DNA of 64,000 bases from Deltaproteobacteria bacterium RBG_16_49_23. GTDB taxonomy: Bacteria; Desulfobacterota; BSN033; UBA1163. Every line of letters starts with the position of its first letter. Positions within the stretch are counted from its first letter, which is position 1. The position numbers and the translations under genes are program-made. The notes beneath the pieces are model-generated. The model ran no database searches, was not told where the DNA came from, and saw only the letters and a list, made by a program, of their open reading frames with translations. Shown in pieces: positions 89-37,088 of this stretch. The DNA lies in NCBI GenBank assembly GCA_001798855.1, contig MGQQ01000089.1:1-64000 (forward strand), given 5' to 3'.

Positions 89-1741
89 CTAGTGGGCAGT
101 TAATTGACGCTCTCTCACTTTGGGATTGGAGTAATCCGGCAGGAGCATGGGAGCTACACGGTCTGTCACGATTCCTGCTTCTTCCAGTTCTTTATGATAT
201 CTCCGGACATGGTCTAAACTCAATTTGCCATCTCTTGCTTTCTCTTTCACATAATCTGCGGCGCTCATTCCGGCAATTTTTCCGAAGACACAGACATCGA
301 GAAGGGAATTCCCCATGAGGCGGTTCTCCCCGTGAACCCCGCCGGATACTTCCCCTGAGGAGTAGAGGCCGGGGATGGCGGTCTCGCACCTGCTGTTGTA
401 TTCCAATCCGCCGTTCTGGTAGTGGACCGTCGGGTAAACCAGCATCGGCTCTTTTGAGATGTCGATGCCGAAACGTTTCAGCAGAATATACTTTCCCGGG
501 AACTCACGTTTGACAGCCCCTTTCCCCATCAGCATCTCGATCAGCGGGGAATCCAGCCAGATTCCCACCTTTCCTGAACCTGTAGGCACTCCCTTCCCTG
601 TCTCGACACATTCTCGGATAAAGCAGGCCGATTCCACATCCCTCGGCTCCCGTTCATTGACAAACTGCTCCCCTTCGATGTTGAGCACATTAGCGCCCGC
701 GCCTCTGAATTTCTCGGTGATGAGGATTCCCTCCGACTGCTCAGGGAAAACAATGCCTGTGGGATGATATTGATAGGTGTGGAGAAAACAGACTGGCAGA
801 CCGGCCCGGTAGCCAAGGACCACGCCATCTCCTGTTGCCCCATAATGATTGGTAGTCATGAATCCCTGATAGTGAAGTCTTCCGGACCCGCCGGTGGCCA
901 GAATCACTGCTTTCGCCTTTGCAATGAAATATTCTTCTGTCTCCAAATTATACAAAACAGCGCCGCCGCAGTGACCATGCTCGTTCAAGATCAGCTCCAC
1001 GGCGGGCATAAACTCGAGAACTTTGATATCGGGTCTGTTTCTGGCTTCGTCTCTCAGGGTTCGCATGATCTCGGCGCCGGTGATGTCCGCTGCATAGTGC
1101 ATCCGTTTCCGGCACGTCCCGCCCCCATGGAGCGTCCTGAGCCGGCCGTCCTCATTTTTGGTGAACATGCAGCCCAAACTCTCGAGCCAGGCGATCACCT
1201 TTGGCGCCCCAGTGACCAACGTATGAACCAATTCCGGATCATTCTTGAAGTGCCCGCCGCCGAGGACATCGAGATAGTGGTAATAAGGTGAATCCTTCGT
1301 CTCCTTGGTGGCAGCCTGAATCCCTCCTTCGGCCATCATTGTATTTGCATCGCCGTGTCTGAGTTTGGTAGCGATCATTACCCGAACGCCGCACTCCTGA
1401 GCCATCAGTGCGGCCGCTGTTCCTGCTCCCCCTCCGCCAAGAATGAGAACATCCGTGTCGAAGTCGACCTTGCTTAAATCGATCTTATCCGGATCGATGC
1501 GACTCCGAGCCTCCAGAAGATTGACCATTTCGGGCTGAATCGCATAACCCTTGCTGGGACCCACCCGGATCTCTGTTCTGGCGCCCGCCTTGTAATCCGG
1601 ATGAAACTTCTCCAGACGCTCCTGCCTCTCTTTGAGAGAAAGCAGGGGGAACTCCTCGCCCCGTTTCTTCCGCTCAAATCTTTCCGGCCGGGTCGCCTCA
1701 ACCCTCTTGATCAGTTGTTTTAATTCTGCTGTGTATGGCAT
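89..1741 (-). CDS. FAD-dependent fumarate reductase / succinate dehydrogenase flavoprotein (TfrA/SdhA-like)
   Basis: GGGGAGTAAALMA FAD motif, HGGGTCRKRMHYAADITG, HPTGI, SGEVSGGVHGENRLMGNSLLD active-site signatures. Confidence 0.9.
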   Translation of the reverse strand: MPYTAELKQLIKRVEATRPERFERKKRGEEFPLLSLKERQERLEKFHPDYKAGARTEIRVGPSKGYAIQPEMVNLLEARSRIDPDKIDLSKVDFDTDVLILGGGGAGTAAALMAQECGVRVMIATKLRHGDANTMMAEGGIQAATKETKDSPYYHYLDVLGGGHFKNDPELVHTLVTGAPKVIAWLESLGCMFTKNEDGRLRTLHGGGTCRKRMHYAADITGAEIMRTLRDEARNRPDIKVLEFMPAVELILNEHGHCGGAVLYNLETEEYFIAKAKAVILATGGSGRLHYQGFMTTNHYGATGDGVVLGYRAGLPVCFLHTYQYHPTGIVFPEQSEGILITEKFRGAGANVLNIEGEQFVNEREPRDVESACFIRECVETGKGVPTGSGKVGIWLDSPLIEMLMGKGAVKREFPGKYILLKRFGIDISKEPMLVYPTVHYQNGGLEYNSRCETAIPGLYSSGEVSGGVHGENRLMGNSLLDVCVFGKIAGMSAADYVKEKARDGKLSLDHVRRYHKELEEAGIVTDRVAPMLLPDYSNPKVRERQLTAH

Positions 1742-1829
1742 GATTCCTCCAAAACTTAGGGTACAGGGGGTTGGGTGTAGGGTTCAGCTACACCCTACAC
1801 CCTGTACCCGACACCCTAATTAACCATTT

Positions 1830-2597
1830 TCATAAATATGTTTTGTCTTTTGGTGTCCAGTCTTCATCCGCCTGCTCGGGTTCCATCTCCCTCGCCGTGT
1901 AGAGTGTTTTCAATGTTTCTTCATCGGCTTTCATCAGTTCTTTCAGCATCGAATCGAACTTACCGCTTTCAATTTCTCCCACCATCGAGGCCAGATGCTC
2001 GGCCCTGGGGGCAATGTACTTCCCGTATAGCCGCCTGCCCAGGATGGCGATGTTGTATTGACAGATCTCTGCGGGGCACCTCGAGGTGCACAAGCCGCAC
2101 ATCACGCAGTCGAAGGAGAGTTCTGCCAAACGGGCGATATCCCCACGCATTCCGGCAGCGATATAATCCATCACCTCAATATCCATCGGGCAGGACTTGG
2201 TGCAGGTATTGCACTGAAGGCACCGGAGGAGTTCAGGATAATTTTTTACCAGTGTCTCGATCGAAGGTTTGATCTTCTCCATATCGTAGACACTCTTGGT
2301 CGCTGGAAAGAAAGGGATCTGTGTAAGATACATGTTTGGCTGGACAACGGTCTGGCAGGCCAGCCCCACCTCGATCTTATAACTTCCAGGAAACCGGTAG
2401 ACCGTTCCACAAGCCCCGCATATCCCTCCGCGGCATCCGCATCCCCGGATCAGTTGATACCCGGCATACTCCATCGCCTTCTGAATGGTGAAGGAAGCAG
2501 GAACTTCATATCGCTTTCCCATGATGAAGATGGGAACCAGCTCCTCCTTCTCCTTCGTTTTACCTTCCATGGGCCTCTCCTCCTTATTGCCCGCCAA
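1830..2597 (-). CDS. Fe-S subunit: 2Fe-2S plus two 4Fe-4S motifs (TfrB/SdhB-like)
   Basis: CGCRGGICGACG...C and CLQCNTCTKSCP / CVMCGLCTSRCP motifs; adjacent to the flavoprotein. Confidence 0.85.
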   Translation of the reverse strand: MAGNKEERPMEGKTKEKEELVPIFIMGKRYEVPASFTIQKAMEYAGYQLIRGCGCRGGICGACGTVYRFPGSYKIEVGLACQTVVQPNMYLTQIPFFPATKSVYDMEKIKPSIETLVKNYPELLRCLQCNTCTKSCPMDIEVMDYIAAGMRGDIARLAELSFDCVMCGLCTSRCPAEICQYNIAILGRRLYGKYIAPRAEHLASMVGEIESGKFDSMLKELMKADEETLKTLYTAREMEPEQADEDWTPKDKTYL

Positions 2598-2798
2598 TAT
2601 TTGAGCCGGCGTTTTTCAATTTCAAATTTCAAAATTCAAATGTCAAATGAATATCAAATTTCAAAACGGAATCGTGCACGAAAAACAAAATATTTTTCGT
2701 CAACGTAGAATTCCAACGTTCTATCATTCCAATTTTCCTTTTTCGACATTTGGGCTTTGGATTTCATTTGGTATTTGAACTTTGACATTTGTCATTTA

Positions 2799-3947
2799 TT
2801 AAATACTTCCAGATTCGATCTTCAGTTCATCTTCTTTGAAGGTGGCTACAGGGGGCACCTCATTCACATCTCTCCCGGGAACATAGTTAAACATCTTCTG
2901 AATCTTCTCTCCCACACTCCGGAAAAGCGTGGCAACGGGCAGCCGGCTCGGGCAGGCGCTGTCGCAGAGCCCGCAACCGATGCAGGAGGTGACCATATGG
3001 GACATCCGGATGAGATGAAAAATGAGGGTATCGGTGGGCATCCGTATCCCTCCTTTCCGGTCGGCCCATCTCAAAAACTGGTCCCCCTCATGTTCGAAGA
3101 CGGCCGTCTTGAAGACACACTCCTTGCAATAACAGATCGGACAGGCCACCATGCAATTGTGGCATCGAATGCAGGTTGAGAACCGGTCCAGGAAGGACTG
3201 AAGGTCTTTGACTATTCCCCTGAATTCCTGAAAAACAGCGTCCCTCTTCTTCGTCCTCTCCGCAACAACCTTGCCCACGACTTCGTTTCTCGATGAAGGT
3301 TCATTTCCTGAAAAGGAGAGGAGTCCCTTCTCTTCCAGCTCTTTCCCCAGCTTTTCTTCGATCTCAAGACCGACCTCTTCCTCCGCTTTATACCCGAAGA
3401 GTTTGATGTGAATATCCGCCTTCGGAATAGGATATTCACACATCCGGCAGGCAGGCCGGAAAGTATATCCCTGCGGAGCAACCGTCTCGCCCCTCTCCAT
3501 TCCTGTGAGAATCTCTCCCGCCAGTTTCTCGCCCTCTTTTCCCTCCTGTACCATCTTTGAATAGTCGGAGACCTCGAATGTCCCCGGACAGTCCACCCCG
3601 ATAAGAAGGAGATTGTCCAGCTTGACCTGAAGAAATTTGGCGAGCTCCACAATGCCCCTGATCTCGCAGGCCTTCAATACGGCGGCGACTTTCTTATTTA
3701 AGTTTTTTATGGAAAGATGGGAGGCGACCTTTGCGGATTGAACCGGCATGGTAAGGGAAAGGGCGCACATGCCATCCATCTTTTCAGGGTCGTGGATCAA
3801 TGTTTGAGCAAACCCATCCCCGGAAGGAAGTCCTTTGGGGACGAGGATGGCTTCAACAACCTCCTTCTCCAAAAGAGATTTAAGAAAACCTTGAATGGCC
3901 TTCTCTGGCCTCCCTTCCGAAACCTTTAACACCGTCTGCTTTGCCAT
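2799..3947 (-). CDS. FrhB/FdhB-like coenzyme F420 hydrogenase beta-type Fe-S protein
   Basis: C-terminal CIRCHNCMVACPICYCKEC and CIGCGLCDSACPSRLP clusters; N-terminal FrhB-like region. Confidence 0.7.
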   Translation of the reverse strand: MAKQTVLKVSEGRPEKAIQGFLKSLLEKEVVEAILVPKGLPSGDGFAQTLIHDPEKMDGMCALSLTMPVQSAKVASHLSIKNLNKKVAAVLKACEIRGIVELAKFLQVKLDNLLLIGVDCPGTFEVSDYSKMVQEGKEGEKLAGEILTGMERGETVAPQGYTFRPACRMCEYPIPKADIHIKLFGYKAEEEVGLEIEEKLGKELEEKGLLSFSGNEPSSRNEVVGKVVAERTKKRDAVFQEFRGIVKDLQSFLDRFSTCIRCHNCMVACPICYCKECVFKTAVFEHEGDQFLRWADRKGGIRMPTDTLIFHLIRMSHMVTSCIGCGLCDSACPSRLPVATLFRSVGEKIQKMFNYVPGRDVNEVPPVATFKEDELKIESGSI

Positions 3948-4099
3948 CTTCGGAAATTCTCCTTTCGTGATATCATCTGCCCAATCGCAGGCTAATCCCG
4001 CGACGCGCGGGACTGCGGCTACATTTATAAAATCCCTCCTAACCTCCCTTTGCCAAAGGGAGGGATTTTCTCCCTTTTATAAAGGGGGAAAAAGGGGGA

Positions 4100-4522
4100 T
4101 TAGGCATTCCATAACTGTTTCATGGGATTGGGTCCCATTTTCTTCAAATCATTGGTCATCTTCGTCACCGTATCGGCAAAAAGCTTTCCCTCGCTGGCGC
4201 TGATCCATTTCAACAAGACACGATCTTCGGTAAAACCCATCTGGTTAAGAATGCCCTTTAGAATTGCCAATCTTCTCCGGGCCTTATAATTTCCCGTCTG
4301 GTAATGGCAGTCTCCGGGGTGGCATCCTCCGATCAGGACGCCATCCGCACCGTCGATCAGGGCCTTGAGCACATAGATTGAATCGACGGCTCCGGAGCAC
4401 ATCAGATGGATGACGCGGATACTGGGTGGGTACTGCTGCCGGGTGGTTCCGGCCAGATCCGCTCCGGTATAGGTGCACCAGTGACAAAGAAAGGCTACGA
4501 TTCTCGGTTCAAATTCAGACAT
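4100..4522 (-). CDS. mvhD: MvhD-like hydrogenase iron-sulfur subunit
   Basis: FLCHWCTYTGADLAGTTR, RVIHLMCSGAVD, GGCHPGDCHYQTGN motifs. Confidence 0.92.
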   Translation of the reverse strand: MSEFEPRIVAFLCHWCTYTGADLAGTTRQQYPPSIRVIHLMCSGAVDSIYVLKALIDGADGVLIGGCHPGDCHYQTGNYKARRRLAILKGILNQMGFTEDRVLLKWISASEGKLFADTVTKMTNDLKKMGPNPMKQLWNA

Positions 4523-4619
4523 GTCTTACCTCCGTTAGTCGTAAGTCGTGAGGCGTTAGGCGTTTAAACCTTTTTTGTTTCCATCCCCTTGCGCCTTACA
4601 CCTGACGCCTTACGTTGTA

Positions 4620-7600
4620 TTAGTCGATGGCTGCATCGAGAACAGCCAGATTTAATGCTTTATCAAAATTCCGCTGTTGCGAGGCCCCATTGCGACAGGC
4701 GACAACACAGTTCCCGCATCCCTGGCAGAGAGACTCCATCACCTCTGCCTTCACTTCCTCTTCATTGAGCGCCCTTGCGCCATAGGGACAGACCGTCACA
4801 CAGAGTCCGCACCCGCAGCAGAGTCTTTTGATCACATTGGCTAAGTAAGCCTTCTCCTCGACAGCCTCCTTGGATAAAAGCGCTCCTGCCCGGGCAGCCG
4901 ATGCATTCCCCTGGGAGATGGAGTCCTCGATGAAATTGGGCGAGTGGCAGAGACCGCAGAAGAATTTCCCCCGGTCCACCGAATCGAGGGGGGCCGATTT
5001 CGGATTGGCCTCCATAAAGAAACCATCCGGGTTAAGATCGACATCAAAGATCTTTGCCAGGTCCCGGTTATCATTTGGTTCGACGCCGGCGCTAAGGATA
5101 AGGCGATCCGCGGGAAGGCTCACCCGGCTTCCCATTGCAGGATCAAAAACCGAAACGGAAAGCCGGCCATTCTCAAGCGCCACCTCCGGTTTCTTCTCCA
5201 GATCGTAACGGATGAAGACTATTCCCTTGCCCCGTGCCTCGTGATAATAGGTTTCATAGAATCCATAGGTCCTCACATCCCGGTAGAGGACATAAACCTG
5301 GGCCGAATGGTTTTGCTCTTTTAGTTTAAGAGCATTCTTTACCGCATGGCCGCAACAGATCCGGCTGCAATAAGGATGCTCCTCATCCCTCGATCCCACG
5401 CACTGGATCATGACAGCCGAGCGGACTTCCTTCAATCCCTCATCCTTAAGGTGAATCATCTTTTCCAGTTGTCTCTGGGTGATGACCCTCGGATCTTTTC
5501 CGTAGAGATACTCTTTCGGAACAACCTCCCTTCCGCCGGTGGCAAGGATGAGGGCTCCGTGTTCGAGAGACTCCTCCCCATCCGGACGGAGGATCTTCGT
5601 CTTGTAATGGCCGTTTCTCTTTTCAAAACCGATGATCTCCGTCTCGAAATAGGGCCGGATGGAAGGATGGTTCTTCACTTTTTGAATGAGATCCTGCAAA
5701 AGAGACTGGGGATTGGATCCCCTCAACGTATAAAAGGAATCCCTCAGATTTCCTCCAAGCTCCCTCTCCTTCTCAATCAGACAGACTTCGTAACCCTGTT
5801 CGGCCAGCCTCAGGGAAGCTGTCATGCCGGCGACCCCTCCGCCCACGACCAATCCTCTCTTCTCAACCTTCTGGCTTCCTTTCCGGATGGGCTGAATTCT
5901 TCTCGCCCGTTCCACAGCCATCCTGATCAGGACCATTGCCTTTTCCGTCGCCAATTCTGGAAGGTCTCTATGAACAAAGGCGCACTGCTCCCGTATATTG
6001 GCATATTCGATCAGGTATGGATTGAAACCCATTCCTTTTGCCATCTCCTCCATTGGTTTCCGAATCTCCCGGTGGGAACAACCGGCGATCACGATTCGAT
6101 TGAGACCATGCTCCCCGATTCTCTTTTTGATCAGATCTAAATCTTCCGGAAGGCAAGCCAAACCTACCTCTTCAATATGAACCACTTCTCTCAGCAACTT
6201 TGTTCCCAGGATGAGATCAAAAAGAGAGAGGCTTTTCTTCAGCTCCTCGCCACAATGGCATATGAAGACCCCTATTTTAGGAATCTCCTCACCCAATGCC
6301 CCTTCCATGGGATACTCTTTCCTGGAAGGAGAAGATGCATTGGGAGCAAGGAAGGAAGCGGCGGCAGCCGCCGCACTTGAGCCTTCGACGACTGTCTCCG
6401 GGATATCCCTGGGGCCCCGGAATGCGCCTCCAACAAAAATGCCTTCAACCGATGTCTGGGCTGGATGAAACTCGTCGGTCTGGCAAAACCCCTGTTGGTT
6501 CAACAGGAGGCCCATCCCTCCGGCGATATCTTTAATGTTCTGTGGAGGCGTGAATCCTACAGAAAGAATGACGCTGTCGAATTCCCTCTCCTCAAAGATG
6601 CCATCCTCTTTCAAATAGGTGATGAAAAGGTTCTTCGTCTGCTGAAGCTCCTTCACCGAGGAGATGGCGCTCCGGATATATTCAATTCCGTATTCGGACT
6701 TCGCCCTCTCATAATACCGCTCGTAATCTTTCCCCATGGGCCGGATGTCCATATAAAAGAAGGTCACATTCAAGCCGGAGGCCCTCTCTTTGGCGATCAT
6801 GGCCTGCTTGGTGGCATACATGCAGCAGATCGTGGAACAGTGGTCCTGGCCGCAGGAGGGGTCTCTCGATCCGACGCACTGGATAAAGGCAATCTTCTCC
6901 ATCTTCTTTCCATCGGAGACCCGAACCGGAAATCCCTGTGTGGGGCTTGATGTGGAGATGAGCCTTTCGAACTGGACGCTGGTCAACACATTTTCGTACC
7001 GGCCAAAACCATACTCCCCTTTCTTCTGCGCCAGGAAGGGTTCAAATCCAAATCCGAGGAGAATGGCTCCTGCCCCGATCTCCTCCTCTTCCTCCTTCAT
7101 GTCGAGGTCGATGGCGCCCGGAGCGCAGGCTTTTACGCATTCTCCACATCGAGTGCATGTCCTGGGATCGATGACAAGACTGTGAGGGATGGCCTGAGGA
7201 TAGGGAAGATAGATCGCTTTTCTTTTTTCCAGGCCGCCTCCGAATTCCCTCTCCACCTCCACCGGACAGACTTTGATGCAGGCTTCGCAGAGGGTGCACC
7301 GCTTCGGATCCACGAATCTGGGCTTACGGACGATGGAGACCCTAAAATCCCCTCCTGTCCCTTCCACCTTCTTCACTTCCGAATAGGGCAACAGTTCGAT
7401 ATTGTCGTGCAGATGACATTCATAGATCGGGCAGAAGGCGGGAGGCGTGGGGCTCATGAAACAGACTCCGCACGAATTCGTTGGAAAGGTCTTGTCGAGG
7501 AGCGGAAAATAGCCTCCGATAGCCGGTCCCTGTTCCAGGAGAAAGACCTTCCTTCCCATCTCTGCCAGCAGCAGCGCGGACTGCATCCCCGCTATCCCTG

Positions 7601-7658
7601 CGCCGATCACCAACGCCGAACTTTTGTCACCCCTCATTTTTCCTTGTGCCATTGTCAT
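4620..7658 (-). CDS. hdrA: Fused HdrA'-HdrA heterodisulfide reductase subunit A-like protein (1012 aa)
   Basis: Two GxGxxG FAD domains, VFICHCGE at mid-protein, FIQCVGSRD twice, C-terminal CCGCGLCVTVCP/CQGCGNCVVAC ferredoxin. Confidence 0.92.
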   Translation of the reverse strand: MTMAQGKMRGDKSSALVIGAGIAGMQSALLLAEMGRKVFLLEQGPAIGGYFPLLDKTFPTNSCGVCFMSPTPPAFCPIYECHLHDNIELLPYSEVKKVEGTGGDFRVSIVRKPRFVDPKRCTLCEACIKVCPVEVEREFGGGLEKRKAIYLPYPQAIPHSLVIDPRTCTRCGECVKACAPGAIDLDMKEEEEEIGAGAILLGFGFEPFLAQKKGEYGFGRYENVLTSVQFERLISTSSPTQGFPVRVSDGKKMEKIAFIQCVGSRDPSCGQDHCSTICCMYATKQAMIAKERASGLNVTFFYMDIRPMGKDYERYYERAKSEYGIEYIRSAISSVKELQQTKNLFITYLKEDGIFEEREFDSVILSVGFTPPQNIKDIAGGMGLLLNQQGFCQTDEFHPAQTSVEGIFVGGAFRGPRDIPETVVEGSSAAAAAASFLAPNASSPSRKEYPMEGALGEEIPKIGVFICHCGEELKKSLSLFDLILGTKLLREVVHIEEVGLACLPEDLDLIKKRIGEHGLNRIVIAGCSHREIRKPMEEMAKGMGFNPYLIEYANIREQCAFVHRDLPELATEKAMVLIRMAVERARRIQPIRKGSQKVEKRGLVVGGGVAGMTASLRLAEQGYEVCLIEKERELGGNLRDSFYTLRGSNPQSLLQDLIQKVKNHPSIRPYFETEIIGFEKRNGHYKTKILRPDGEESLEHGALILATGGREVVPKEYLYGKDPRVITQRQLEKMIHLKDEGLKEVRSAVMIQCVGSRDEEHPYCSRICCGHAVKNALKLKEQNHSAQVYVLYRDVRTYGFYETYYHEARGKGIVFIRYDLEKKPEVALENGRLSVSVFDPAMGSRVSLPADRLILSAGVEPNDNRDLAKIFDVDLNPDGFFMEANPKSAPLDSVDRGKFFCGLCHSPNFIEDSISQGNASAARAGALLSKEAVEEKAYLANVIKRLCCGCGLCVTVCPYGARALNEEEVKAEVMESLCQGCGNCVVACRNGASQQRNFDKALNLAVLDAAID

Positions 7659-7770
7659 CCTCTGAAAATTGTTTGAGGTTGGAGGCGGTCTTTGTTAGAG
7701 GATTGAGGTTAGAGGAGCGCTTCGCTTTAGGCAAAATCTCTTGCCTCAACCCTAACGCGAATTTGATCCA

Positions 7771-8616
7771 CTATCCCAATCCCAGCGATTCCAGTAATCC
7801 TTTCGGAGAAATCATATGTTTCTTCCACCATGTGTTCTTCTTTTCAGAATCAAAGGCCACTCCCATCAGTTCGGTAAAGTAGAAGACAGGAAGGCCCGCA
7901 TCCTGCCTCATCTCAAGGTTCGCTTGACAGAGGCCGCAGGAGGTGACAATACACTGTGCTCCTGCCTCCTTAGCCATGGCGACGATCTTTCCCACCATCT
8001 TCTGGACCACATTCCCGTAGGTCAGAGCCAGGTCCGCCCCGCAACAGTCAATCTTATACGACCAATCGACCGGCTCTGCTCCGATGGCTTTCATGATCCG
8101 GTCCATATATTGAGGGTTCTCAGGATCATCCAGCCCGGTCACCTTGGGATGCCGGACCAGCGCGCATCCATAGTAGCAGGCAGCCTTCAACCCCGTTAAG
8201 GGCTTCTTCACTTTTTCACGAATCTGATCGAGTCCTACCCGGTTGAGGACCACATCGATCAAAGCCAGAATCTCTAATCCGGGATCGTAGTTAAATTGAA
8301 CGATATCTTCAATCTCTTTTCGCCTGGCTTCGTCATTTTTAAGCGCATACTCGGCCCGTTTCAGCATATTGAAACATCCGGCGCAGGGGATCACAAGAGG
8401 CCCCGCCTGAGCCGCTTGAGCCTTTGAGATGTTTCGGGCCGGAAGGGAGAGGGAGAGAAGGTGATTGATGCTGTGCGTGGCTGCTGCGCCGCAGCAGTTC
8501 CAGTCTTCGATCTCTACCAAATCTACTCCTAATGTTTTGAGGACAGCCTCCGTGGAACGCCCGTATTCATACGATGTGGAATGATCCGTACAACCCGGAA
8601 AATATGAGAATCTCAT
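7771..8616 (-). CDS. hdrB: HdrB-like subunit (two CCG domains)
   Basis: SYFPGCTDH start; CCGAAATHS...PCAGCFN and CCGADLALT...SCGLCQANL. Confidence 0.9.
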   Translation of the reverse strand: MRFSYFPGCTDHSTSYEYGRSTEAVLKTLGVDLVEIEDWNCCGAAATHSINHLLSLSLPARNISKAQAAQAGPLVIPCAGCFNMLKRAEYALKNDEARRKEIEDIVQFNYDPGLEILALIDVVLNRVGLDQIREKVKKPLTGLKAACYYGCALVRHPKVTGLDDPENPQYMDRIMKAIGAEPVDWSYKIDCCGADLALTYGNVVQKMVGKIVAMAKEAGAQCIVTSCGLCQANLEMRQDAGLPVFYFTELMGVAFDSEKKNTWWKKHMISPKGLLESLGLG

Positions 8617-8866
8617 TCTATGCCTCCAAAATGTAATTCACGGAATATTGGAATACTGGAAACCTGAGAACTGGAATAATGGAATGTTGGAACAATGGAA
8701 TAAAGGAGAAAACCTGGACCAGCGAAAAATCGATGCGAAGATTTTTGCCATTCTTCCAGTGTTCAAATATTTCATCATTACAGAGTGGTCTTAACCCATC
8801 ATTCCAATATTCCACCTTTCCAATATTCCATATTTTGATATTCCATTGTTCCATTATTCCTCGTTC

Positions 8867-9418
8867 TTATTTTTTACACCTTTCAAAGATTCTTTTGATT
8901 TCTCCTCTTCCTTTGACCAAACTGGGAAGGAGAGGAATCTTCCCCTTCATAAAGAGCATCATGCCGGGAACGAGGTCGGTCAGGAAGTCTTTGCTGCGAA
9001 GTTTATAATCGATCAGCATCGTCGCCTCATGGACCCTTCCGCCCCTCCGGATGCTATCGATAAATGCCTCGTGGAGGAGATGAATATTTTTCTCCTTTGC
9101 GTGGATTCCCTCATCAATGGCCATCTCTCTTAAGGCATCCATCAGGACGCCGATGTCGATCTTATTTGGACACCGGGTCCCGCAGGTCTCACAGGAGACA
9201 CAGAGCCAGATGGCGCTGCTTCCCAGGACTTCCTGCTTCATCCCCATCTGGATCATCCGGATGATATTGTTAGGCCGGATATCCATGATAGGGGCAGTGG
9301 GACACCCTGCCGTGCACTTCAGGCACTGGTAGCAAAGGCTGAGGTCTTCCCCGCTCCGTTTTTTGGCTTCCTCCAGAAAAGTGGCATCCATTTTATTCAT
9401 TTCGGTTATAGCTTCCAA
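8867..9418 (-). CDS. hdrC: HdrC-like 4Fe-4S subunit
   Basis: CYQCLKCTAGCPTAP and CVSCETCGTRCPNKIDI. Confidence 0.9.
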   Translation of the reverse strand: MEAITEMNKMDATFLEEAKKRSGEDLSLCYQCLKCTAGCPTAPIMDIRPNNIIRMIQMGMKQEVLGSSAIWLCVSCETCGTRCPNKIDIGVLMDALREMAIDEGIHAKEKNIHLLHEAFIDSIRRGGRVHEATMLIDYKLRSKDFLTDLVPGMMLFMKGKIPLLPSLVKGRGEIKRIFERCKK

Positions 9419-9496
9419 TTTTATCTCCTTTGTGTTTCACATTTCAGGGCTAAGGGTGTTGGGTGTAGGGTTTAAAAACCCCTTACCCCCTGTACC

Positions 9497-11464
9497 CTAC
9501 TCCCTCGCCCCTGCTGTTACAAACGTATCCAGCATCCGAAGGGTCTGGATCGACGAATTATTTCTTAACTCACAGGCAAAGTTTGGGCAAGCCGCAATGC
9601 AGGCGCCACACCCCTGACAGAGGGCGCTATGGACGACCGAAATCCCCCGCTGAGAATCCATCTCCCTCGCCTCATAGGGACAGATCTCAACGCAGATGCC
9701 GCATCCGCTGCAAATATTCTCATCCACAAAAGCAATCAAAGGGTCCTGAAGGAGCTTATCCGTCGAAAGCAGGGCCTGAATTTTGCTGGCCGTGGCCGAA
9801 GCCTGCGAGACCGTATCCGAGATATCCTTCGGGCTCTGACCGCAACCAGCCAGGTAGATTCCCTTGGTCGAGCTCTCCACAGGATAGAGTTTGATATGGG
9901 CCTCTGTCCAAAAGCCATGGCGATCAACGGTAGCCCTCAGTTTGGCGGCCAGATCTTTCACCCCGTCGCTTGGAACGACGGCTGTGGCCAATACAACCAT
10001 ATCTGCGGCCACTTCAACCATTCTTCCTGTGAGGGTGTCCACTCCTAATACCCTCACCTTCCCATCATCCTGAAAGACCCTGGAGACACGGCCCCTGAGG
10101 TAGAGAAGCCCTTTCTCCTCGATCGTCTTCTGCAAAAATTCTTCGTAGCCTTTGCCATCCGACCGGATATCCATGTAGAAGATATAGGGCTGTCCGTCCG
10201 GCACCTGCTCCTTATAAATCTTCGCCTGCTTGGCTGTGTACATGCAGCAGATGCGGGAACAGTAAGGCATATACCGGTCCGGGTCCCTGGAAGCCACGCA
10301 CTGGATGAAGACCATCTCCTTCGGGACTTTCCCGTCGGAGGGCCGGATGATCCTTCCCTTTGTAGGCCCATCGACTGAAAGCATCCGTTCCAGAGCCAGG
10401 CCGTCGATCACATCCGGAATCTCTCCATATCCATACTCTCCGAGCCGTTCCCTGGGATAGAGTTCAAATCCTGTGGCCACGACAATGGCTCCGACCTTCT
10501 TTCCGATTCGTTCATCCTCCTGCTCGAACCGGATGGCCTTCTCAGGGCAGACCTCTTCGCATCTTCTGCAACTTCCATCAATGAAATACCGGCAGTGGCT
10601 GCGATGGATAACCGGCTTATGGGGAACGCTCTGAGGATAGAGCAGATCGATCGCCTTTCGAACTCCCAAGCCTCTCTCAAACTGGGAAACATACTCCACG
10701 GGACAATCCCTGATGCAGAGGCCGCATTCATTACACTTCTCCCAATCCACATGGGTTGCTTTCTTCCGTATCGTCAGCTCGAAATTCCCCACATAGCCCT
10801 TCACATCCTCCATCTCCGAATAACAGTGGAGATCGATCCCTGGATGCTTCTCTATCTCCAATGCCTTTGTGAGAAGATCCGGAAGGGCGGGATGGAGGTC
10901 GGGAAACGTTCTTGAGAGCTGGGTCATATGTCCGCCCAGGGCCTGTTCCTTCTCGAGCAGGATGACCTCATAACCTCCCTCGGCCAGGTCGAGGGCCGCT
11001 GTCATTCCGGCGATCCCTCCGCCGATCACGAGGACGCTGCGGTTGATGGAAACGGAGATGGCCTCAAGCTTCTCGTTCTCTCTCACCTTTTCAAGCGTCG
11101 CCAGAATGATCTCCTCGGCCTTCTCTGTCGCCTTCTCCTTCTCCTTCTGGTGAACCCAGCTGCACTGTTCCCGGATATTGGCGATCTCACAGAGATAGGG
11201 GTTCATCCCTTCCGACTTGACCGCCTTCCTGAAGGTGTTCTCATGCATGCTCGGCGAACAGCAGGCAACGACGACCCCTTCCAACCCCTTCTCCCGAACC
11301 GCCTCCCTGATGAGCTGTTGCCCGGGTTCAGAGCACATGTAGATGTAGTCTGTGCTGTGGGCGACATCCCCGACGCTTCCCACCTTGCCGGCCACCGATT
11401 TGACATCGACGGTGCCCGCAATATTCACTCCGCAATGACAGATAAAAACACCCAGCTTCTTCAT
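9497..11464 (-). CDS. hdrA: HdrA-like subunit A (full-length type)
   Basis: MKKLGVFICHCGVNIAGTVDV; GGGIAGMTAALDLAEGG; C-terminal dicluster ferredoxin; internal Met chosen as start. Confidence 0.9.
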   Translation of the reverse strand: MKKLGVFICHCGVNIAGTVDVKSVAGKVGSVGDVAHSTDYIYMCSEPGQQLIREAVREKGLEGVVVACCSPSMHENTFRKAVKSEGMNPYLCEIANIREQCSWVHQKEKEKATEKAEEIILATLEKVRENEKLEAISVSINRSVLVIGGGIAGMTAALDLAEGGYEVILLEKEQALGGHMTQLSRTFPDLHPALPDLLTKALEIEKHPGIDLHCYSEMEDVKGYVGNFELTIRKKATHVDWEKCNECGLCIRDCPVEYVSQFERGLGVRKAIDLLYPQSVPHKPVIHRSHCRYFIDGSCRRCEEVCPEKAIRFEQEDERIGKKVGAIVVATGFELYPRERLGEYGYGEIPDVIDGLALERMLSVDGPTKGRIIRPSDGKVPKEMVFIQCVASRDPDRYMPYCSRICCMYTAKQAKIYKEQVPDGQPYIFYMDIRSDGKGYEEFLQKTIEEKGLLYLRGRVSRVFQDDGKVRVLGVDTLTGRMVEVAADMVVLATAVVPSDGVKDLAAKLRATVDRHGFWTEAHIKLYPVESSTKGIYLAGCGQSPKDISDTVSQASATASKIQALLSTDKLLQDPLIAFVDENICSGCGICVEICPYEAREMDSQRGISVVHSALCQGCGACIAACPNFACELRNNSSIQTLRMLDTFVTAGARE

Positions 11465-11547
11465 AATCCGTGAATCGTAAATCGTAAGGCGCAAGGGGTA
11501 AAACAACTCTTTTTCACCTCACGCTTTACGCCTGACGACTTACGCCG

Positions 11548-12858
11548 TTAGTGTTTTGCAAACAATCCCTGGACTTTGCTCGCGGCTCCATTGGCATGAG
11601 CCACGGCATCGGCAATATCCTTCGGTCCCTGGGCGCAGCCTGCGAGGTAGATTCCTTCCACATTGGTTTCCACGGGCCGGAGTTTCCTCTCCGCCTCCGT
11701 AAAGAACCCGTATTCATCCGTGTTGATTCCCAGTTTTTGAGCCAGCCCCTTCGTCCCCCCCTGCGGAATGATGGCAGTAGCCAGAACGACCATATCCGCA
11801 GAGATCTCCACCTTCTTGCCGGTCAGCGTATCCACACCCCAGACCACAACCCTTCCGTCATCCCTGAAGATCCGGGAAACCCTGCCGCGGAGATAGAGGA
11901 TCCCCTCCTCTTCCATCCCCTGCTGGATGAACTCCTCGTAACCCTTGCCTGTTGACCGGATATCCATATAGAAGATATAAGCCTGCCCGTCATGGACTTT
12001 ATGTTTGTAAAGCCTCGCATGTTTGGCCGTGTACATGCAGCAGACCCGTGAGCAGTAGGGCATATACCGTTCCGGATCTCGCGACCCTGTACACTGGATG
12101 AAAACAACTTCTTTCGGGACCTTCCCATCCGAAGGCCTTCTGATTGCACCCGTTGTCGGCCCGGATGCGGAATTGAGCCTCTCAAAGGCCAGGCCGTCGA
12201 TCACATCCGGAATCGTCCCATAACCATATTCCCCGAAAGTCTCCTTTGGAATCAGGTCAATACCCACGGCGGTGATGATGGCTCCGACTCTCTCTTCGAC
12301 AAACCGGTCCTGCTGTTCGTAATCGATGGCTCCAACCGGACAGACCTTCTCACAGACTCTGCATTTCTTCTCCAGGAAATAGCGGCAGTTGGAAGGGTTG
12401 ATGACAGGCTTGTTCGGAACGGCCTGAGGTGAAAGCGTATAGATCGCCTTTCCCATACCCATGCCCCGGTCAAACTCAGAGGGCTTTTTCGAAGGGCACT
12501 TCTCCTGACAGAGGCCGCACCCCGTGCATTTCTCCCAGTCCACATAGGCCGCTTTCCTGCGGATTTTCACGGTAAAGTTGCCGGCCTTCCCTTCCACTCT
12601 GTCCACTTCCGAATAGGTGAGAAGTTTAATATGAGGATGCTGGCCTGTCTCGACGGTTTTGGGAGTCAGGGTGCACTGGGCGCAATCAAGCGTCGGAAAG
12701 GTCTCTGAGAGCTGGAGCATCCTTCCTCCGATGGAGGGAAGTTTCTCCACCAGAACAACATCATAACCCGCATTTCCGATGTCAATGGATGCCGAGATGC
12801 CGGCAATGCCTCCGCCGATCACCATCGCCCTTTTGATGAATTTCCCATTCTCCTTCAT
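11548..12858 (-). CDS. HdrA'-like flavoprotein lacking the N-terminal CHCG domain and C-terminal ferredoxin (436 aa)
   Basis: VIGGGIAGISASIDIGNAGYDVVLVEK; CTGCGLCQEKCP; VFIQCTGSRDPERYMPYCSRVCCMY. Confidence 0.88.
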   Translation of the reverse strand: MKENGKFIKRAMVIGGGIAGISASIDIGNAGYDVVLVEKLPSIGGRMLQLSETFPTLDCAQCTLTPKTVETGQHPHIKLLTYSEVDRVEGKAGNFTVKIRRKAAYVDWEKCTGCGLCQEKCPSKKPSEFDRGMGMGKAIYTLSPQAVPNKPVINPSNCRYFLEKKCRVCEKVCPVGAIDYEQQDRFVEERVGAIITAVGIDLIPKETFGEYGYGTIPDVIDGLAFERLNSASGPTTGAIRRPSDGKVPKEVVFIQCTGSRDPERYMPYCSRVCCMYTAKHARLYKHKVHDGQAYIFYMDIRSTGKGYEEFIQQGMEEEGILYLRGRVSRIFRDDGRVVVWGVDTLTGKKVEISADMVVLATAIIPQGGTKGLAQKLGINTDEYGFFTEAERKLRPVETNVEGIYLAGCAQGPKDIADAVAHANGAASKVQGLFAKH

Positions 12859-12859
12859 C

Positions 12860-13741
12860 TTAGATAAAACCCTTTTCCTTTAGGAGCGGCAAAGGATCCA
12901 CAAAGTTCTGTTCAAACCCCAGGGTCTGATAATCGAGTCCCATGGCCATCCCGAGAAGCTGTGTGAAATAGAGGACCGGGATCGATTTGAAGTCCAGATA
13001 TTTCTGCTTGATGTCGGACTGTTTATGGTCGATGTTGAAGGTGCACATCGGACAGGTTGAAACAACGACCTCTGCTCCGTTCTTAATGGCGGAGCCCAGA
13101 ATCTTATAGCCGCATTCCGTGGCCACTTCCGGCGATCCCACGGATTGAAAAGACCCGCAGCATTCGATCTTGTAGGGAAAATCGACCGGTTCCGCGCCCA
13201 TGGCTTCCAGGAACTCTTCGAACAGGGTGGGCCTCTCCTTGTCGTCAAACCCCATCTCGTCAAACGGGCGAAGGAGCATGCATCCATAATAGGCTGCCGC
13301 CTTCAGCCCGGCCAGCGGCTTCCTCACCCTCTCTTTGATTTGAGGAAACCCGATCTCCTGTTTCAGGATCTCCAGGTAGTGGAGGACACGGAGGTCGCCC
13401 TGGTAGTTCATTTCGATAAAGTTATTGATCTTCTCCCTCTTCTCTCCGTCATTCTGAATCAACCGGTTCGTCCGCTTAATCACATTGAAGCAGATGGCGC
13501 AGAGGGTCGTCAGGGTGGTTCCTTCTTGCCTCGCCCTGGCTAAAATCCTCGAAGGCGGAAGAAGGGCCATGATATTGTCCGTGGCCAATGGAAAAGTTGC
13601 TCCGCAGCAGGTCCAGTTGGGAAGTTCCTTCAATTCGAACCCGAGGAGAAGGGAGCAGTTCCGGGCCGTCTGATCGAGATTTTTAGCCTTGGTGTAGAGC
13701 GTGCATCCGGGAAAGTAGAGATAATCCATGATCGACCCCAT
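12860..13741 (-). CDS. hdrB: HdrB-like subunit (second copy)
   Basis: YLYFPGCTLY; CCGATFPLA...LCAICFN; CCGSFQSVG...TCPMCTFN. Confidence 0.9.
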   Translation of the reverse strand: MGSIMDYLYFPGCTLYTKAKNLDQTARNCSLLLGFELKELPNWTCCGATFPLATDNIMALLPPSRILARARQEGTTLTTLCAICFNVIKRTNRLIQNDGEKREKINNFIEMNYQGDLRVLHYLEILKQEIGFPQIKERVRKPLAGLKAAAYYGCMLLRPFDEMGFDDKERPTLFEEFLEAMGAEPVDFPYKIECCGSFQSVGSPEVATECGYKILGSAIKNGAEVVVSTCPMCTFNIDHKQSDIKQKYLDFKSIPVLYFTQLLGMAMGLDYQTLGFEQNFVDPLPLLKEKGFI

Positions 13742-13848
13742 CCTTTTACCCCTCCCCCTTGACGGGGGAGGGTACGGGTGGGGGTGAATCAGTTCTTCAT
13801 CCCCCTCCCCTCCATCCCCTCCCGCCAGGGGGAGGGAAATTTTCTATT

Positions 13849-14262
13849 TTAAGATAAAAATTTCCTGAAGCCGCTGATGAATGCGATTTGCGGCACCCTC
13901 TCCAGAAACCCCTCCTGGAATTCGGAAATCTGAATATGATCCTTCCGGTCCTTCTTCCTCAGGATGACCATTCGCAATGCATCCATCACCCTGGCGATAT
14001 CGATCCCCTTCGGACACCTCGACGTGCACTGGAGGCACGAAGCGCAGAGCCAGAAGGTATTCACTCCGAGCGCCTCCTCTTCGAGGCCGAGAAGCGTATA
14101 ACGGATGACCTCATGAGGACCAACCTCCATGGCAAAAGCCACCGGGCAGCCGGCTGTGCAATTTCCGCACTGGTAACAGGCGAAGAGATTCTGCCCGCTG
14201 ATCAGCTCCACTTTCTTTGCAAATTCATTGTGGACCTTCTGTCTCGTCAGTTCGATCTTCAT
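13849..14262 (-). CDS. hdrC: HdrC-like subunit (second copy)
   Basis: CYQCGNCTAGCPVAF, CASCLQCTSRCPKGIDI; start MKIELTRQK. Confidence 0.9.
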   Translation of the reverse strand: MKIELTRQKVHNEFAKKVELISGQNLFACYQCGNCTAGCPVAFAMEVGPHEVIRYTLLGLEEEALGVNTFWLCASCLQCTSRCPKGIDIARVMDALRMVILRKKDRKDHIQISEFQEGFLERVPQIAFISGFRKFLS

Positions 14263-14294
14263 GATGAATCTCCAAAAAAACGCATTAAATATTT

Positions 14295-14353
14295 TGTAGG
14301 GCATGATCTCCGATCATGCCTTTAAACGGTGTGTTCGGGGAACACACCCTACA
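14295..14353. repeat. Three-way-junction palindrome: TGTAGGG...CCCTACA enclosing two hairpins
   Basis: GCATGATC-TCC-GATCATGC and GGTGTGTTC-GGG-GAACACACC inside the outer stem. Confidence 0.85.
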
Positions 14354-14428
14354 TTCCATATAAATTCATTTATTGCGTACATATTAATAATAAAACACCG
14401 TTGGTGATAAAACGAGTCTATCTTCCCC

Positions 14429-14986
14429 TCATCCTTGCCGGTATCTCTTCTCCCCTTCAATATAAAGGTCGTTTCCTCGAACATCATTGATGACGATCAC
14501 CGGAAGGTCTTCAACTTCCAGCCTCCGGATGGCCTCTGGGCCAAGATCCTCATAAGCCACTATCTCTGCCTTCTTCACCTTTTTGGCAAGAAGAGCCCCG
14601 GCGCCTCCGGTAGCTGCAAAGTATATAGCTTTATACTTCTTCATCGCTTCTTTAACCGCATCGGACCGCATGCCTTTTCCAACCATCCCTTTCAACCCCT
14701 TCTCAATCAAAGCGGGAGCATAGGCATCCATCCGGTAACTGGTTGTAGGGCCTGCTGACCCGAAGACCCGTCCCGGTCTGGCGGGTGTTGGGCCGACATA
14801 ATAGATGACCTGGCCCCGAATGTCAAAAGGGAGCTCTTTTCCCTCTTTCAAAAGATCGGAAAGCCTTTTATGTGCGGCATCCCTTCCCGTATAGATGACC
14901 CCATTGAGCAGAATGCGATCGCCGATCTTTAGCTTTTCCACATCTTCATCACTCAGGGGTGTCTTCAAACGAATAGGCTCAGCCAT
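14429..14986 (-). CDS. Class I fumarate hydratase, beta (C-terminal) subunit
   Basis: GDRILLNGVIYTGRDAAHKRL; YVGPTPARPGRVFGSAGPTTSYRMD. Confidence 0.92.
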   Translation of the reverse strand: MAEPIRLKTPLSDEDVEKLKIGDRILLNGVIYTGRDAAHKRLSDLLKEGKELPFDIRGQVIYYVGPTPARPGRVFGSAGPTTSYRMDAYAPALIEKGLKGMVGKGMRSDAVKEAMKKYKAIYFAATGGAGALLAKKVKKAEIVAYEDLGPEAIRRLEVEDLPVIVINDVRGNDLYIEGEKRYRQG

Positions 14987-15195
14987 AAATCCTCCGTTAA
15001 ACTAATGATGGGGAGATAGGGGGATTGGGTGATGGGGTGACAACAAATGTCACAATGAAAATTGCAAAGTTAACAATCCAAAATTAGCAATTAAAAAAGC
15101 TTATTTATTCTTTATTAGTTATTGGGAATTGGTCATTGATAATTGCTAATTGATCACTTTGCAATGATTATTTTTCTACCTATCTCCTCATCTCC

Positions 15196-16035
15196 CTATA
15201 GGATTACCTCTTTATGTCTCTGGGCGTGGCACTGAATGTTAACTGCCAGCGGGAAACTGGCGATGTGGCAGGGCATCATCAAAATGTGAACCGCCAGCGA
15301 GGTGGTCCGTCCTCCCAGACCCTGTGGTCCGATGCCCAGCCTGTTGATCTCCTCCAGAATCTCCGACTCCAGTCTGTCCAGCTCCGGGTCCTGATTCCTG
15401 CTTCCGAGAGGACGGAGAAGGCTCTTCTTCGCAAGAAGCGCGGCCAGCTCAAATGTCCCTCCGATTCCGACTCCGATAATGGTCGGTGGACAGGGATTGG
15501 AGCCCGACTCCTTCACCCTCTGGACGACATAGCGTTTGATTCCCTCAATCCCATCGGATGGCGTCAGCATCACCACTCGGCTCATATTCTCACTGCCGCC
15601 CCCTTTCGGAGCCACGGTAATCTTAACTTTATCTCCCTGAACGATCTCCGTATGGATGATGGCGGGAGTATTGTCCCCGGTATTTTTCCGGGTGAAAGGA
15701 TGACAGATCGACTTCCTGAGATACCCGTCCCGGTATCCCTGGCGAACCCCTTCAAAGATCGCCTCCTTCAGGTCCCCCCCGGCCAGATGAACATCCTGTC
15801 CCAATTCGAGGAAGACCACTGCAAATCCCGTATCCTGACAGAGGGCCACCTTTTCGTCCTTTGCAATCCGGGCATTCTCTTTCAATTCCCTCAGTATTTC
15901 CAGTCCCAGAGAAGATTCTTCCTTTTCGATGGCCCGGTCAAACGCTTGAAGCACATCCTCTCCCAGATCGGTGTTTGCCTCCATACAGAGGTCTCTCACC
16001 TTCTCGGTGATCAACTTGACATCGATCTCTCGCAT
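15196..16035 (-). CDS. Class I fumarate hydratase, alpha subunit
   Basis: CQDTGFAVVFLELGQDVH; PKGGGSENMSR; GIGGTFELAA. Confidence 0.93.
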   Translation of the reverse strand: MREIDVKLITEKVRDLCMEANTDLGEDVLQAFDRAIEKEESSLGLEILRELKENARIAKDEKVALCQDTGFAVVFLELGQDVHLAGGDLKEAIFEGVRQGYRDGYLRKSICHPFTRKNTGDNTPAIIHTEIVQGDKVKITVAPKGGGSENMSRVVMLTPSDGIEGIKRYVVQRVKESGSNPCPPTIIGVGIGGTFELAALLAKKSLLRPLGSRNQDPELDRLESEILEEINRLGIGPQGLGGRTTSLAVHILMMPCHIASFPLAVNIQCHAQRHKEVIL

Positions 16036-16050
16036 TTCTTCATCCCCATT

Positions 16051-16110
16051 CAGGGCTAAAGCCCTGAGTTACAAATTTTTAAGAATATGTAACTCAACCC
16101 TTTAGGGTTG
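16051..16110. repeat. Twin-palindrome element, copy 1, 15 bp upstream of the fumarase alpha start
   Basis: CAGGGCTAAAGCCCTG / AGTTACA...TGTAACT / CAACCCTTTAGGGTTG; second copy at 46178-46236. Confidence 0.85.
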
Positions 16111-16121
16111 ATTCATTACAA

Positions 16122-17084
<963 letters not shown>

Positions 17085-20401: not shown

Positions 20402-21130
20402 TCACGGATTTTCATCGGAAACCAGTAGGCTCTTCATCTCCCCCGGACTGCCGAACTCCATCTTCATCAGCCGCTGATAATAGGATCGTGAGGTGTAGAG
20501 GGCAGCCAGCGGATTATGCCCTGTGACCCGGTCTTTCACGGCAAAGACGGTGGTCAGGCCATTAATAAATTTCAAAAAGAGGGAATCATGGCCGATACAG
20601 AGTCCCAGCATGACATTAAAATCGGTCCCGGCCTGATTCAAGATTTTTGCCTGGGCAATCGGATTACACATTGACTCAAATTCCCCGATACAGATCTTCT
20701 CCTCATCCTTCACACCGATCCTCTCCTTTGGAATCCCTCCCACCTTGCACGAAACCGAAATAACCTCGAAGCCATGCTTTTCCAGAATCTCTGAGAGAAC
20801 GGCAGCCTCATGGGTCAGGCCGCCACAGAAGGCCAAACCAAGCTTCTTATAGCCCATCCTCTGAGAGAATTCGATCAACTCCTCCATTCTGCTTTTTGTG
20901 GGAATCATCACAAACGGTCTGGCTTCACGCAGTGCGTAACAGGAACCCTCCTGAACCGAGGCCGTCCGTGCAAACTCTTTTATCTCCGGATCGTCATATC
21001 TCTCCATGGCTTCCGTCAGGGCTGACTCTCCTTTCTTTGTTGGACACCAGGAAGGCCCCCTGCCCTTCTCCAGCCGGCAGATCTTCTCTACCACCGCACA
21101 CTTTGCGCAATTGCATCCGATGTCTTCCAT
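20402..21130 (-). CDS. DUF1847-like Cys-rich metal-binding protein
   Basis: CNCAKCAVVEKICRLEKGRGPSWCP; LGLCIGHDSLFLK. Confidence 0.75.
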   Translation of the reverse strand: MEDIGCNCAKCAVVEKICRLEKGRGPSWCPTKKGESALTEAMERYDDPEIKEFARTASVQEGSCYALREARPFVMIPTKSRMEELIEFSQRMGYKKLGLAFCGGLTHEAAVLSEILEKHGFEVISVSCKVGGIPKERIGVKDEEKICIGEFESMCNPIAQAKILNQAGTDFNVMLGLCIGHDSLFLKFINGLTTVFAVKDRVTGHNPLAALYTSRSYYQRLMKMEFGSPGEMKSLLVSDENP

Positions 21131-28497: not shown

Positions 28498-28519
28498 TCT
28501 CTCGATGTTAGGTTTAAAA

Positions 28520-28556
28520 TTCCCCCTTCCCGATGTTCTGGGAAGGGGGAATTTTT
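28520..28556 (+). terminator. Rho-independent terminator
   Basis: TTCCCCCTTCCC-gatgttct-GGGAAGGGGGAA followed by TTTTT. Confidence 0.85.
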
Positions 28557-28580
28557 GATGGAAAATTGGGAGAACGGTCG

Positions 28581-29036
28581 ATGAATAAATTTACAATCTT
28601 TTTCCCCATCTTAATCCTTCTTTTCCCCATCATCGCCTTATCTCAAAAATCAGACTCCGCCATTGTGGATTTCAAAGTTCAGGCGCTATACCGGGCAGCC
28701 AAGCTGACCTGGAAGGCAAAGGAGGGCTTGAAAAGTCCTATCACGGTTCAGATCTTCCGAGCAGATACTTTTGAAGAGGGCCCCTACAAGGAAGTGGACG
28801 CTGTCGCTCTTGCCCCCGATAAGAGCGCCTATGAGTATATAGATAAAACCATGGGGGCAGAAGCAAAATACTATTACAAACTCATCATTAAAGAAACGAA
28901 TGAATCTTTCGGTCCGATTCCTACGAGGCCCTTCTTTTCTCCTCCTGCAACTCATTGGAAGCCGCCAACCCCGAAGCAACAGCATGGTAACATCTTGGGC
29001 TCAGATTTCCGCCCATCCGTGAGGAAAGAATCCTAA
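28581..29036 (+). CDS. Secreted hypothetical protein, FN3-like
   Basis: Signal peptide MNKFTIFFPILILLFPIIALSQ; stop abuts the next start (TAAATG). Confidence 0.6.
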   Translation: MNKFTIFFPILILLFPIIALSQKSDSAIVDFKVQALYRAAKLTWKAKEGLKSPITVQIFRADTFEEGPYKEVDAVALAPDKSAYEYIDKTMGAEAKYYYKLIIKETNESFGPIPTRPFFSPPATHWKPPTPKQQHGNILGSDFRPSVRKES

Positions 29037-29642: not shown

Positions 29643-29643
29643 A

Positions 29644-35076: not shown

Positions 35077-35188
35077 AAAGTGAGTTACAGGATCGCTCTA
35101 CGCTTAAGGTTGGAGGAGCGCTTCGCTTGAGGTAAAATCTTTTACCTCTATCCTCAAGTTCTGCTGCGGCAGAACGATCCTCAAACCT

Positions 35189-36298: not shown

Positions 36299-36326
36299 AA
36301 ATCCCTCCTCCTCAGGAGTTGACTCT

Positions 36327-36968: not shown

Positions 36969-37088
36969 ATTAGACCTCCCCAAGAAATCCTCCCCACCCT
37001 TTTCTTCCCCTCTCCGAGCCAGAGGCTCTTCTGAGCCGGAGGCCTCGAGGGGGAAGGGTGAGGGAGGGGGGGATATCAATAATATTGG

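Follow-up and report, generated by a model that had tools for sequence, protein, structure and literature searches.

The window analysed here, 64,000 nucleotides of Deltaproteobacteria bacterium RBG_16_49_23 (contig MGQQ01000089.1, positions 1 to 64,000), carries two heterodisulfide reductase-type (Hdr) units, hdrC-hdrB-hdrA'-hdrA followed by hdrC-hdrB-hdrA'A, in one operon with genes of a fumarate reductase-like enzyme. This locus raises the question of whether the second unit is a copy of the first, and of what two such units could do side by side. As judged from their sequences, the two Hdr units resemble a duplicated block but have separate origins, and they seem to have evolved independently the same lopsided pairing of flavin subunits. 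The operon as a whole probably encodes a soluble flavin-based bifurcating fumarate reductase, possibly reversed as a confurcating succinate dehydrogenase, built from these two separately derived Hdr modules.

Two Hdr Modules of Different Ancestry

The two modules comprise seven genes, given here in transcription order with protein lengths in amino acids (aa); TrxR denotes the thioredoxin reductase-like domain and FAD flavin adenine dinucleotide.

13849..14304, minus strand: hdrC1, 151 aa, HdrC-like dicluster Fe-S protein (TIGR03290, 73.5 bits; second ATG at 14262)
12860..13741, minus strand: hdrB1, 293 aa, two CCG motifs, both complete on motif check (TIGR03288, 192 bits)
11548..12858, minus strand: hdrA', 436 aa, TrxR/FAD domain with inserted ferredoxin and Cys194/Cys197, without N-terminal domain and without C-terminal ferredoxin
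9497..11506, minus strand: hdrA, 669 aa (probably 655), with N-terminal domain, TrxR/FAD domain, inserted ferredoxin and C-terminal ferredoxin, Cys194/Cys197 gone
8867..9418, minus strand: hdrC2, 183 aa (TIGR03290, 76 bits)
7771..8616, minus strand: hdrB2, 281 aa, two CCG motifs, both complete; best model SdhE/HdrB (NF042965, 165 bits; TIGR03288, 147 bits)
4620..7658, minus strand: hdrA'A fusion, 1012 aa, A'-like in its first half and HdrA-like in its second, which has neither inserted ferredoxin nor Cys197

The gaps between neighbouring genes from hdrC1 to hdrA'A are 1–250 bases. The gene order, lengths and motifs given in a preliminary description of this DNA were all correct on re-checking; the 669-aa reading frame of HdrA is present as described, but its start probably lies at the ATG of MKKLGVFICHCG (MKKLG), giving 655 aa.

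The same description had interpreted the arrangement as a tandem duplication of one hdrC-hdrB-hdrA'-hdrA module, with hdrA' and hdrA fused in the second copy. The C-B-A'-A order is indeed identical in both modules, and by motif and architecture the fused halves map to the split pair. By identity they do not: A' and A share 60% with each other, compared with 37% between A' and the first fused half and 35–36% between A and the second, that is, 35–37% to the matching half. Between the modules, the two HdrCs are 38% and the two HdrBs 33% identical.

In the main tree, built from 92 TrxR domains, all first fused halves formed one clade (100) and all second halves another (100), and A' together with A formed a single clade (ultrafast bootstrap 100) nested among the single HdrAs of Flx-Hdr and Flx-Hdr fumarate-reductase operons. 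The window's own fused halves grouped with fused proteins from other loci, not with A' or A, and first halves, second halves and A'+A likewise stood apart in an earlier tree of 122 domains. Under a duplication, A' should be the sister of the first fused half and A that of the second, so the A'+A clade rejects it. When the duplication topology was forced in approximately unbiased (AU) tests, it was 59 log units worse (p = 0.014), and it remained 117 log units worse without the second halves (p = 0.0012) and 66 log units worse without the first halves (p = 0.009). Long-branch attraction was dismissed as the cause of the AU rejection, since the duplication was still rejected after dropping either fused half. 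Further, HdrB1 clustered with the HdrBs of simple Flx-Hdr fumarate-reductase operons (support 100), and HdrB2 with those of fused-HdrA operons (support 95). Taken together, the identities, trees, AU tests and HdrB clades point to two modules of different ancestry, which are not sisters. The duplication reading is therefore extremely improbable; it also has to face the other gene order, AA-D-F-C2-B2, of G033 and, strand-reversed, of G091, where HdrC2-HdrB2 are placed after the FdhB-like gene, and it could be rescued only if A' and A had undergone pervasive gene conversion in all lineages.

Predicted Asymmetric Pairing in Both HdrA Units

In the methanogen structure, Cys197 of one HdrA serves as a ligand to the N-terminal cluster of its partner, and a complementary loss of the N-terminal domain and Cys197 marks heterodimeric HdrA, encoded by separate genes or as fusions (PMC9012536). 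This pattern occurs twice in the window, in the A'/A pair and in the two fused halves. A' and the first fused half keep Cys194/Cys197 (listed as 193/196 in the tables, where the numbering is one lower) and the inserted ferredoxin and have no N-terminal domain, and the window's A and second fused half keep the N-terminal and C-terminal cluster cysteines and have lost Cys197.

Within the 1012-aa fusion, the first half consists of a TrxR domain with inserted ferredoxin (about residues 13–440), and the second of the HdrA N-terminal domain (about 458–590), a TrxR domain without inserted ferredoxin (about 597–930) and then the C-terminal dicluster ferredoxin. Three pieces aligned with solved HdrA, namely residues 13–379 with the TrxR domain including the inserted ferredoxin, 458–637 with the N-terminal domain and TrxR start, and 866–999 with the TrxR end and C-terminal ferredoxin. 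The earlier observation that an internal 4Fe-4S pair is missing from the fused HdrA half was confirmed, as 8/8 inserted-ferredoxin cysteines are absent there. Modelled as a single chain with AlphaFold2 (21 sequences), the fusion reached a mean predicted local distance difference test score (pLDDT) of 83 and a predicted template modelling score (pTM) of 0.83, and the best Foldseek fold matches of this model were HdrA chains, with template modelling scores by target of 0.93 over a 438-column stretch and 0.77 over 664 columns. The three window HdrAs scored 839, 722 and 484 bits with the NCBIfam methanogen HdrA models, below the cut-off of 1100 (HdrA2); they appear to be homologues of methanogen HdrA, not its equivalogs.

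The losses were counted across homologues. Cys194, Cys197 and all eight inserted-ferredoxin cysteines were kept in A' (17/17), in the fused first half (21/21) and, apart from one protein, in single HdrAs (16/17). The fused second half had lost Cys194, Cys197 and the inserted ferredoxin in all 21 cases, whereas from A, Cys194 was lost in 16/16 proteins, Cys197 in 13/16 and the inserted ferredoxin in only 5/16. The five A proteins that lack the inserted ferredoxin lack Cys197 as well, so the losses are nested, and it is this nesting that would account for the 4Fe-4S pair missing from the second fused half. We infer that loss of the N-terminal domain in one partner takes Cys197 and the inserted ferredoxin of the other off the electron route, so that they decay. 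Both HdrA units would thus be asymmetric dimers of a partner that bears Cys197 and the inserted ferredoxin and a partner that bears the N-terminal cluster domain, and the split A'/A pair may be a younger, still incomplete repeat of an asymmetry that the fused family completed earlier.

Conservation of the Double Unit among Relatives

At E ≤ 1e-100 the fusion had matches in 81 of 99 relatives, often in multiple copies, and an A'-type match was found in about 44 of the 396 sampled genomes of the phylum, as counted from the matches listed. Within the reach of the contigs, the block was conserved together with fumarase and SdhA/SdhB genes in 25 additional genomes, which represent 10 families of the phylum. 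A' was accompanied by the fused module at all 25 sufficiently long loci, a count from which G315, G019 and G021 stand apart because their contigs end too early. The modules are thus kept side by side, in keeping with the earlier proposal of two non-redundant units in one operon; that the window units bifurcate electrons, as was also proposed, is presumed from their sequences.

Other relatives, for example G109, carry a simple operon of the order malate dehydrogenase-fumarase-HdrC-HdrB-HdrA-MvhD-FlxC-FlxB-FlxA-SdhB-SdhA. Its HdrA is single and complete, a few small additional frames occur in it, and its FlxA has nicotinamide adenine dinucleotide (NAD)-binding and DHODB-type Fe-S domains. The window-type operon has A' and A, and its block HdrC2-HdrB2-fused HdrA'A-MvhD-FdhB-like occupies the position that MvhD-Flx holds in the simple type.

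Many fused HdrA'A genes of the relatives carry one in-frame TGA, suggesting selenocysteine; the window copy has none.

A Probable Bifurcating Fumarate Reductase with a Changed Electron Input

The borders first assigned to the system, 4620–14262, were too narrow, as it spans 89 to 17051 and includes the following further genes, of which mvhD to the SdhA-like gene lie immediately downstream of the fusion and those for fumarase and malate dehydrogenase upstream of hdrC1.

4100..4522, minus strand: mvhD/flpD, 140 aa, [2Fe-2S] electron-entry subunit (PF02662, E 8e-51)
2799..3947, minus strand: FdhB/FrhB-like Fe-S protein, 382 aa, putative electron input (PDB 7bkb_E FdhB, E 1.9e-35, residues 12–374)
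1830..2597, minus strand: SdhB/TfrB-like Fe-S subunit, 255 aa, no CCG domain
89..1741, minus strand: SdhA/TfrA-like fumarate reductase flavoprotein, 550 aa, catalytic motifs kept, Asn in place of the covalent-FAD His
14429..14986, minus strand: fumarase beta subunit (NF005310 and TIGR00723, both above cut-off)
15196..16035, minus strand: fumarase alpha subunit (NF004885, above cut-off)
16122..17051, minus strand: malate dehydrogenase (TIGR01763, above cut-off)

Since the contig starts at window base 1, the operon may continue past the SdhA-like gene. As in a Flx-Hdr fumarate reductase, genes for fumarase, HdrABC, MvhD and SdhA/SdhB-like subunits share one conserved operon; of the FlxABC input, no NAD-binding FlxA or FlxB gene was found between mvhD and sdhB in the window.

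The SdhA-like subunit has the FAD-binding fold and the fumarate-site motifs HPTG, TE..RG.G, HY..GG and HG.NRL; a catalytic motif was not found in three SdhA-like sequences, two of them cut by a contig end. Asn stood at the covalent-FAD His position in 23/23 homologues read. Non-covalent FAD favours fumarate reduction. Along its entire sequence, the FdhB-like protein is homologous to the FdhB found in the Fdh-Hdr-Fmd complex. A thiol:fumarate reductase TfrAB was rejected, as the TfrB of methanogens has an HdrB-like CCG domain, the 255-aa subunit has no CCG domain and the scores reached 339 bits against a cut-off of 718 for TfrA and 21 against 385 for TfrB.

In content, the simple operon equals the 'succinate operon' of Pseudoclostridium thermosuccinogenes. 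For the latter, PMC7282089, citing a 2019 preprint by Koendjbiharie and van Kranenburg, mentions a proposed coupling of fumarate reduction to ferredoxin reduction. The simple operon also resembles the related tfrAB-flxABCD-hdrABC cluster carried by tubeworm symbionts (PMC6315080). From these likenesses and the Asn at the FAD site, the window operon is read as that of a bifurcating fumarate reductase with a changed input, in which HdrA is duplicated into A' and A, and the NADH (Flx) input would have been replaced by the second Hdr module. Electrons would enter from the FdhB-like protein through MvhD and the C-terminal ferredoxin of an HdrA half to the FAD. The high-potential branch would run via the TrxR Fe-S cluster, then HdrC and HdrB, to SdhB/SdhA, where fumarate is reduced; the low-potential branch would start at the cluster that one HdrA half binds with its N-terminal domain and the other with Cys197, and would end with the inserted ferredoxin of the Cys197-bearing half passing electrons to free ferredoxin. 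As neither A' nor the first fused half has an N-terminal domain, each dimer would have only one low-potential route, which makes Cys197 and the inserted ferredoxin of A and the second half dead ends and each HdrA unit a predicted one-way asymmetric dimer.

Several observations weigh against this reading. The operon has one mvhD for two Hdr modules, the wiring between the modules is a guess, and it is gene linkage that suggests that all subunits may form one complex. The electron donor is likewise hard to place: F420 was rejected because CofD was not found in the 93% complete genome, NADH via Flx because the genome gave no match to the FlxA of G109 (a weak negative), and the operon contains no catalytic subunit of a formate dehydrogenase (FdhA). 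The genome has two other SdhA-like genes of about 35% identity, so the operon is not the sole candidate for a fumarate or succinate enzyme. Finally, in the G033 and G091 families A' and A group within the family, which means either two duplications or gene conversion.

The operon might instead work in the oxidative direction, as a ferredoxin-driven or confurcating succinate dehydrogenase of a syntrophic or complete-oxidising metabolism, in which succinate electrons (about +33 mV) go uphill with reduced ferredoxin to a mid-potential carrier. The nearby malate dehydrogenase, fumarase and OadA-like carboxylase are compatible with either direction, and an oxidative syntrophic lifestyle is possible in a genome in which no DsrA match was found and carbon monoxide dehydrogenase/acetyl-CoA synthase is present (two CdhC-family matches); no RnfC above cut-off was found in it either. 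The Asn in SdhA, however, argues against this direction, as do the nearest operons, which belong to succinate formation in P. thermosuccinogenes and to a reductive tricarboxylic acid cycle cluster, and we regard it as unlikely.

Two independent enzymes could also share the operon, with module 1, SdhA/SdhB and fumarase reducing fumarate, and module 2, MvhD and the FdhB-like protein serving other carriers. Consistent with this, module 2-like sets (fused HdrA, MvhD, FdhB/FlxC-like) occur elsewhere without module 1, at L110, L112 and L115, and both HdrBs have complete CCG motifs. However, module 1 has no MvhD or Flx input of its own in window-type operons, A' was found only with module 2 at the 25 sufficiently long loci, and MvhD-Flx takes the place of module 2 in simple operons, which leaves such a division of labour doubtful.

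Within the bifurcating fumarate reductase, a two-stage scheme, in which the fused HdrA'A module and the HdrA'/HdrA module would each exploit the large drop to fumarate (about +33 mV), is a speculative variant that we consider rather improbable. Electrons would then pass in series between the Hdr modules, and more than one low-potential electron pair would be obtained per fumarate.

Comparison with Known Systems

As described in PMC7282089, P. thermosuccinogenes likewise combines fumarase, an HdrABC-type bifurcation complex and fumarate reductase, but has a Flx NADH dehydrogenase input and one Hdr complex, whereas the window has two Hdr units and an FdhB-like input, lacks FlxA/FlxB in the operon, and combines an HdrA heterodimer pair with a fusion. 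Tandem and fused HdrAs of anaerobic methanotrophic archaea (ANME) show the same complementary loss of N-terminal domain and Cys197, as separate genes and as fusion, but the ANME fusions have the N-terminal-domain half first and the window fusion the Cys197 half (PMC9012536); the window differs further in having split and fused forms in one operon with fumarate reductase. The fused HdrAs of Sporomusa ovata (942 aa) and Moorella thermoacetica (1487 aa), which occur with MetVF-HdrBC-MvhD, share with the window fusion the MvhD partner, a C-terminal half without inserted ferredoxin and an extra TrxR-like half before it; their partner is methylene-tetrahydrofolate reductase, and a second HdrA pair is not described (PMC9430772). 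For the benzoyl-CoA reductase complex of Geobacter metallireducens, PMC9430772 similarly discusses an HdrA homologue with two flavin sites and two proposed tandem bifurcations, but the catalytic subunits are others, and the HdrA units of the window lie in two separate modules. The Methanospirillum Fdh-Hdr-Fmd complex (PDB 7bkb) likewise joins HdrABC with an FdhB that is clearly homologous to the FdhB-like subunit; in the window there is no FdhA in the operon, no F420 synthesis was found, and fumarate reductase replaces formylmethanofuran dehydrogenase.

Already published are thus a fused HdrA without the inserted ferredoxin of the second half (PMC9430772), heterodimeric HdrA (PMC9012536) and, as a proposal, a bifurcating Flx-Hdr fumarate reductase (PMC7282089). 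No description was found in the open-access literature, which is weak evidence of novelty, of split and fused heterodimeric HdrA with fumarate reductase in a conserved operon, or of an independent stepwise asymmetry of the split pair. The conserved double-unit operon would extend the bifurcating fumarate reductases, a proposed class of enzymes that would let anaerobes gain reduced ferredoxin from succinate formation. Asymmetric HdrA dimers would have arisen more than once, in an older fused form and in a younger split pair with intermediates visible, and the nested losses predict which HdrA half feeds ferredoxin, something that the symmetric methanogen structures cannot show directly.

Further Loci of the Genome and the Window

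A second near-full-length fused HdrA'A with 44% identity is encoded in the same genome on contig C93. On this contig, locus L104 (4103–8698 and 1–3066) encodes a fused HdrA'A of 1532 aa whose first half contains an inserted GltD/NfnB-like NAD(P)H oxidoreductase domain. Adjoining it are HdrB, HdrC, MvhD and a second fused HdrA'A, and the contig also carries a CdhC-family gene. This 1532-aa protein resembles Moorella HdrA and ANME-1 HdrA-NfnB, and matches the GltD form of Moorella better than the window fusion does. Another split pair lies at L105 (C41, 5881–9990), where a 650-aa HdrA without Cys194/Cys197 is accompanied by a partner that carries a GltD/NfnB-like insertion and, truncated where the contig ends, is at least 703 aa long. 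A second intact SdhA paralogue of the operon type was also considered and rejected, as its 59% match on C145 breaks off at about residue 116; the frame of this truncated paralogue (L165; C145, 11102–12778) runs into an apparent IS66-type transposase.

Elsewhere in the window, a DUF1847 protein is encoded at 20402–21130, upstream of the OadA-like gene. A DUF362 protein, an Fe-S protein, an aldehyde:ferredoxin oxidoreductase and a cytochrome b561-type protein follow in a row on the plus strand at 27313–32498, and pterin-binding methyltransferase-like, uroporphyrinogen-decarboxylase-like and B12-binding proteins are encoded at 34270–37079, adjoining an ATP-binding cassette transporter of the branched-chain amino acid type.

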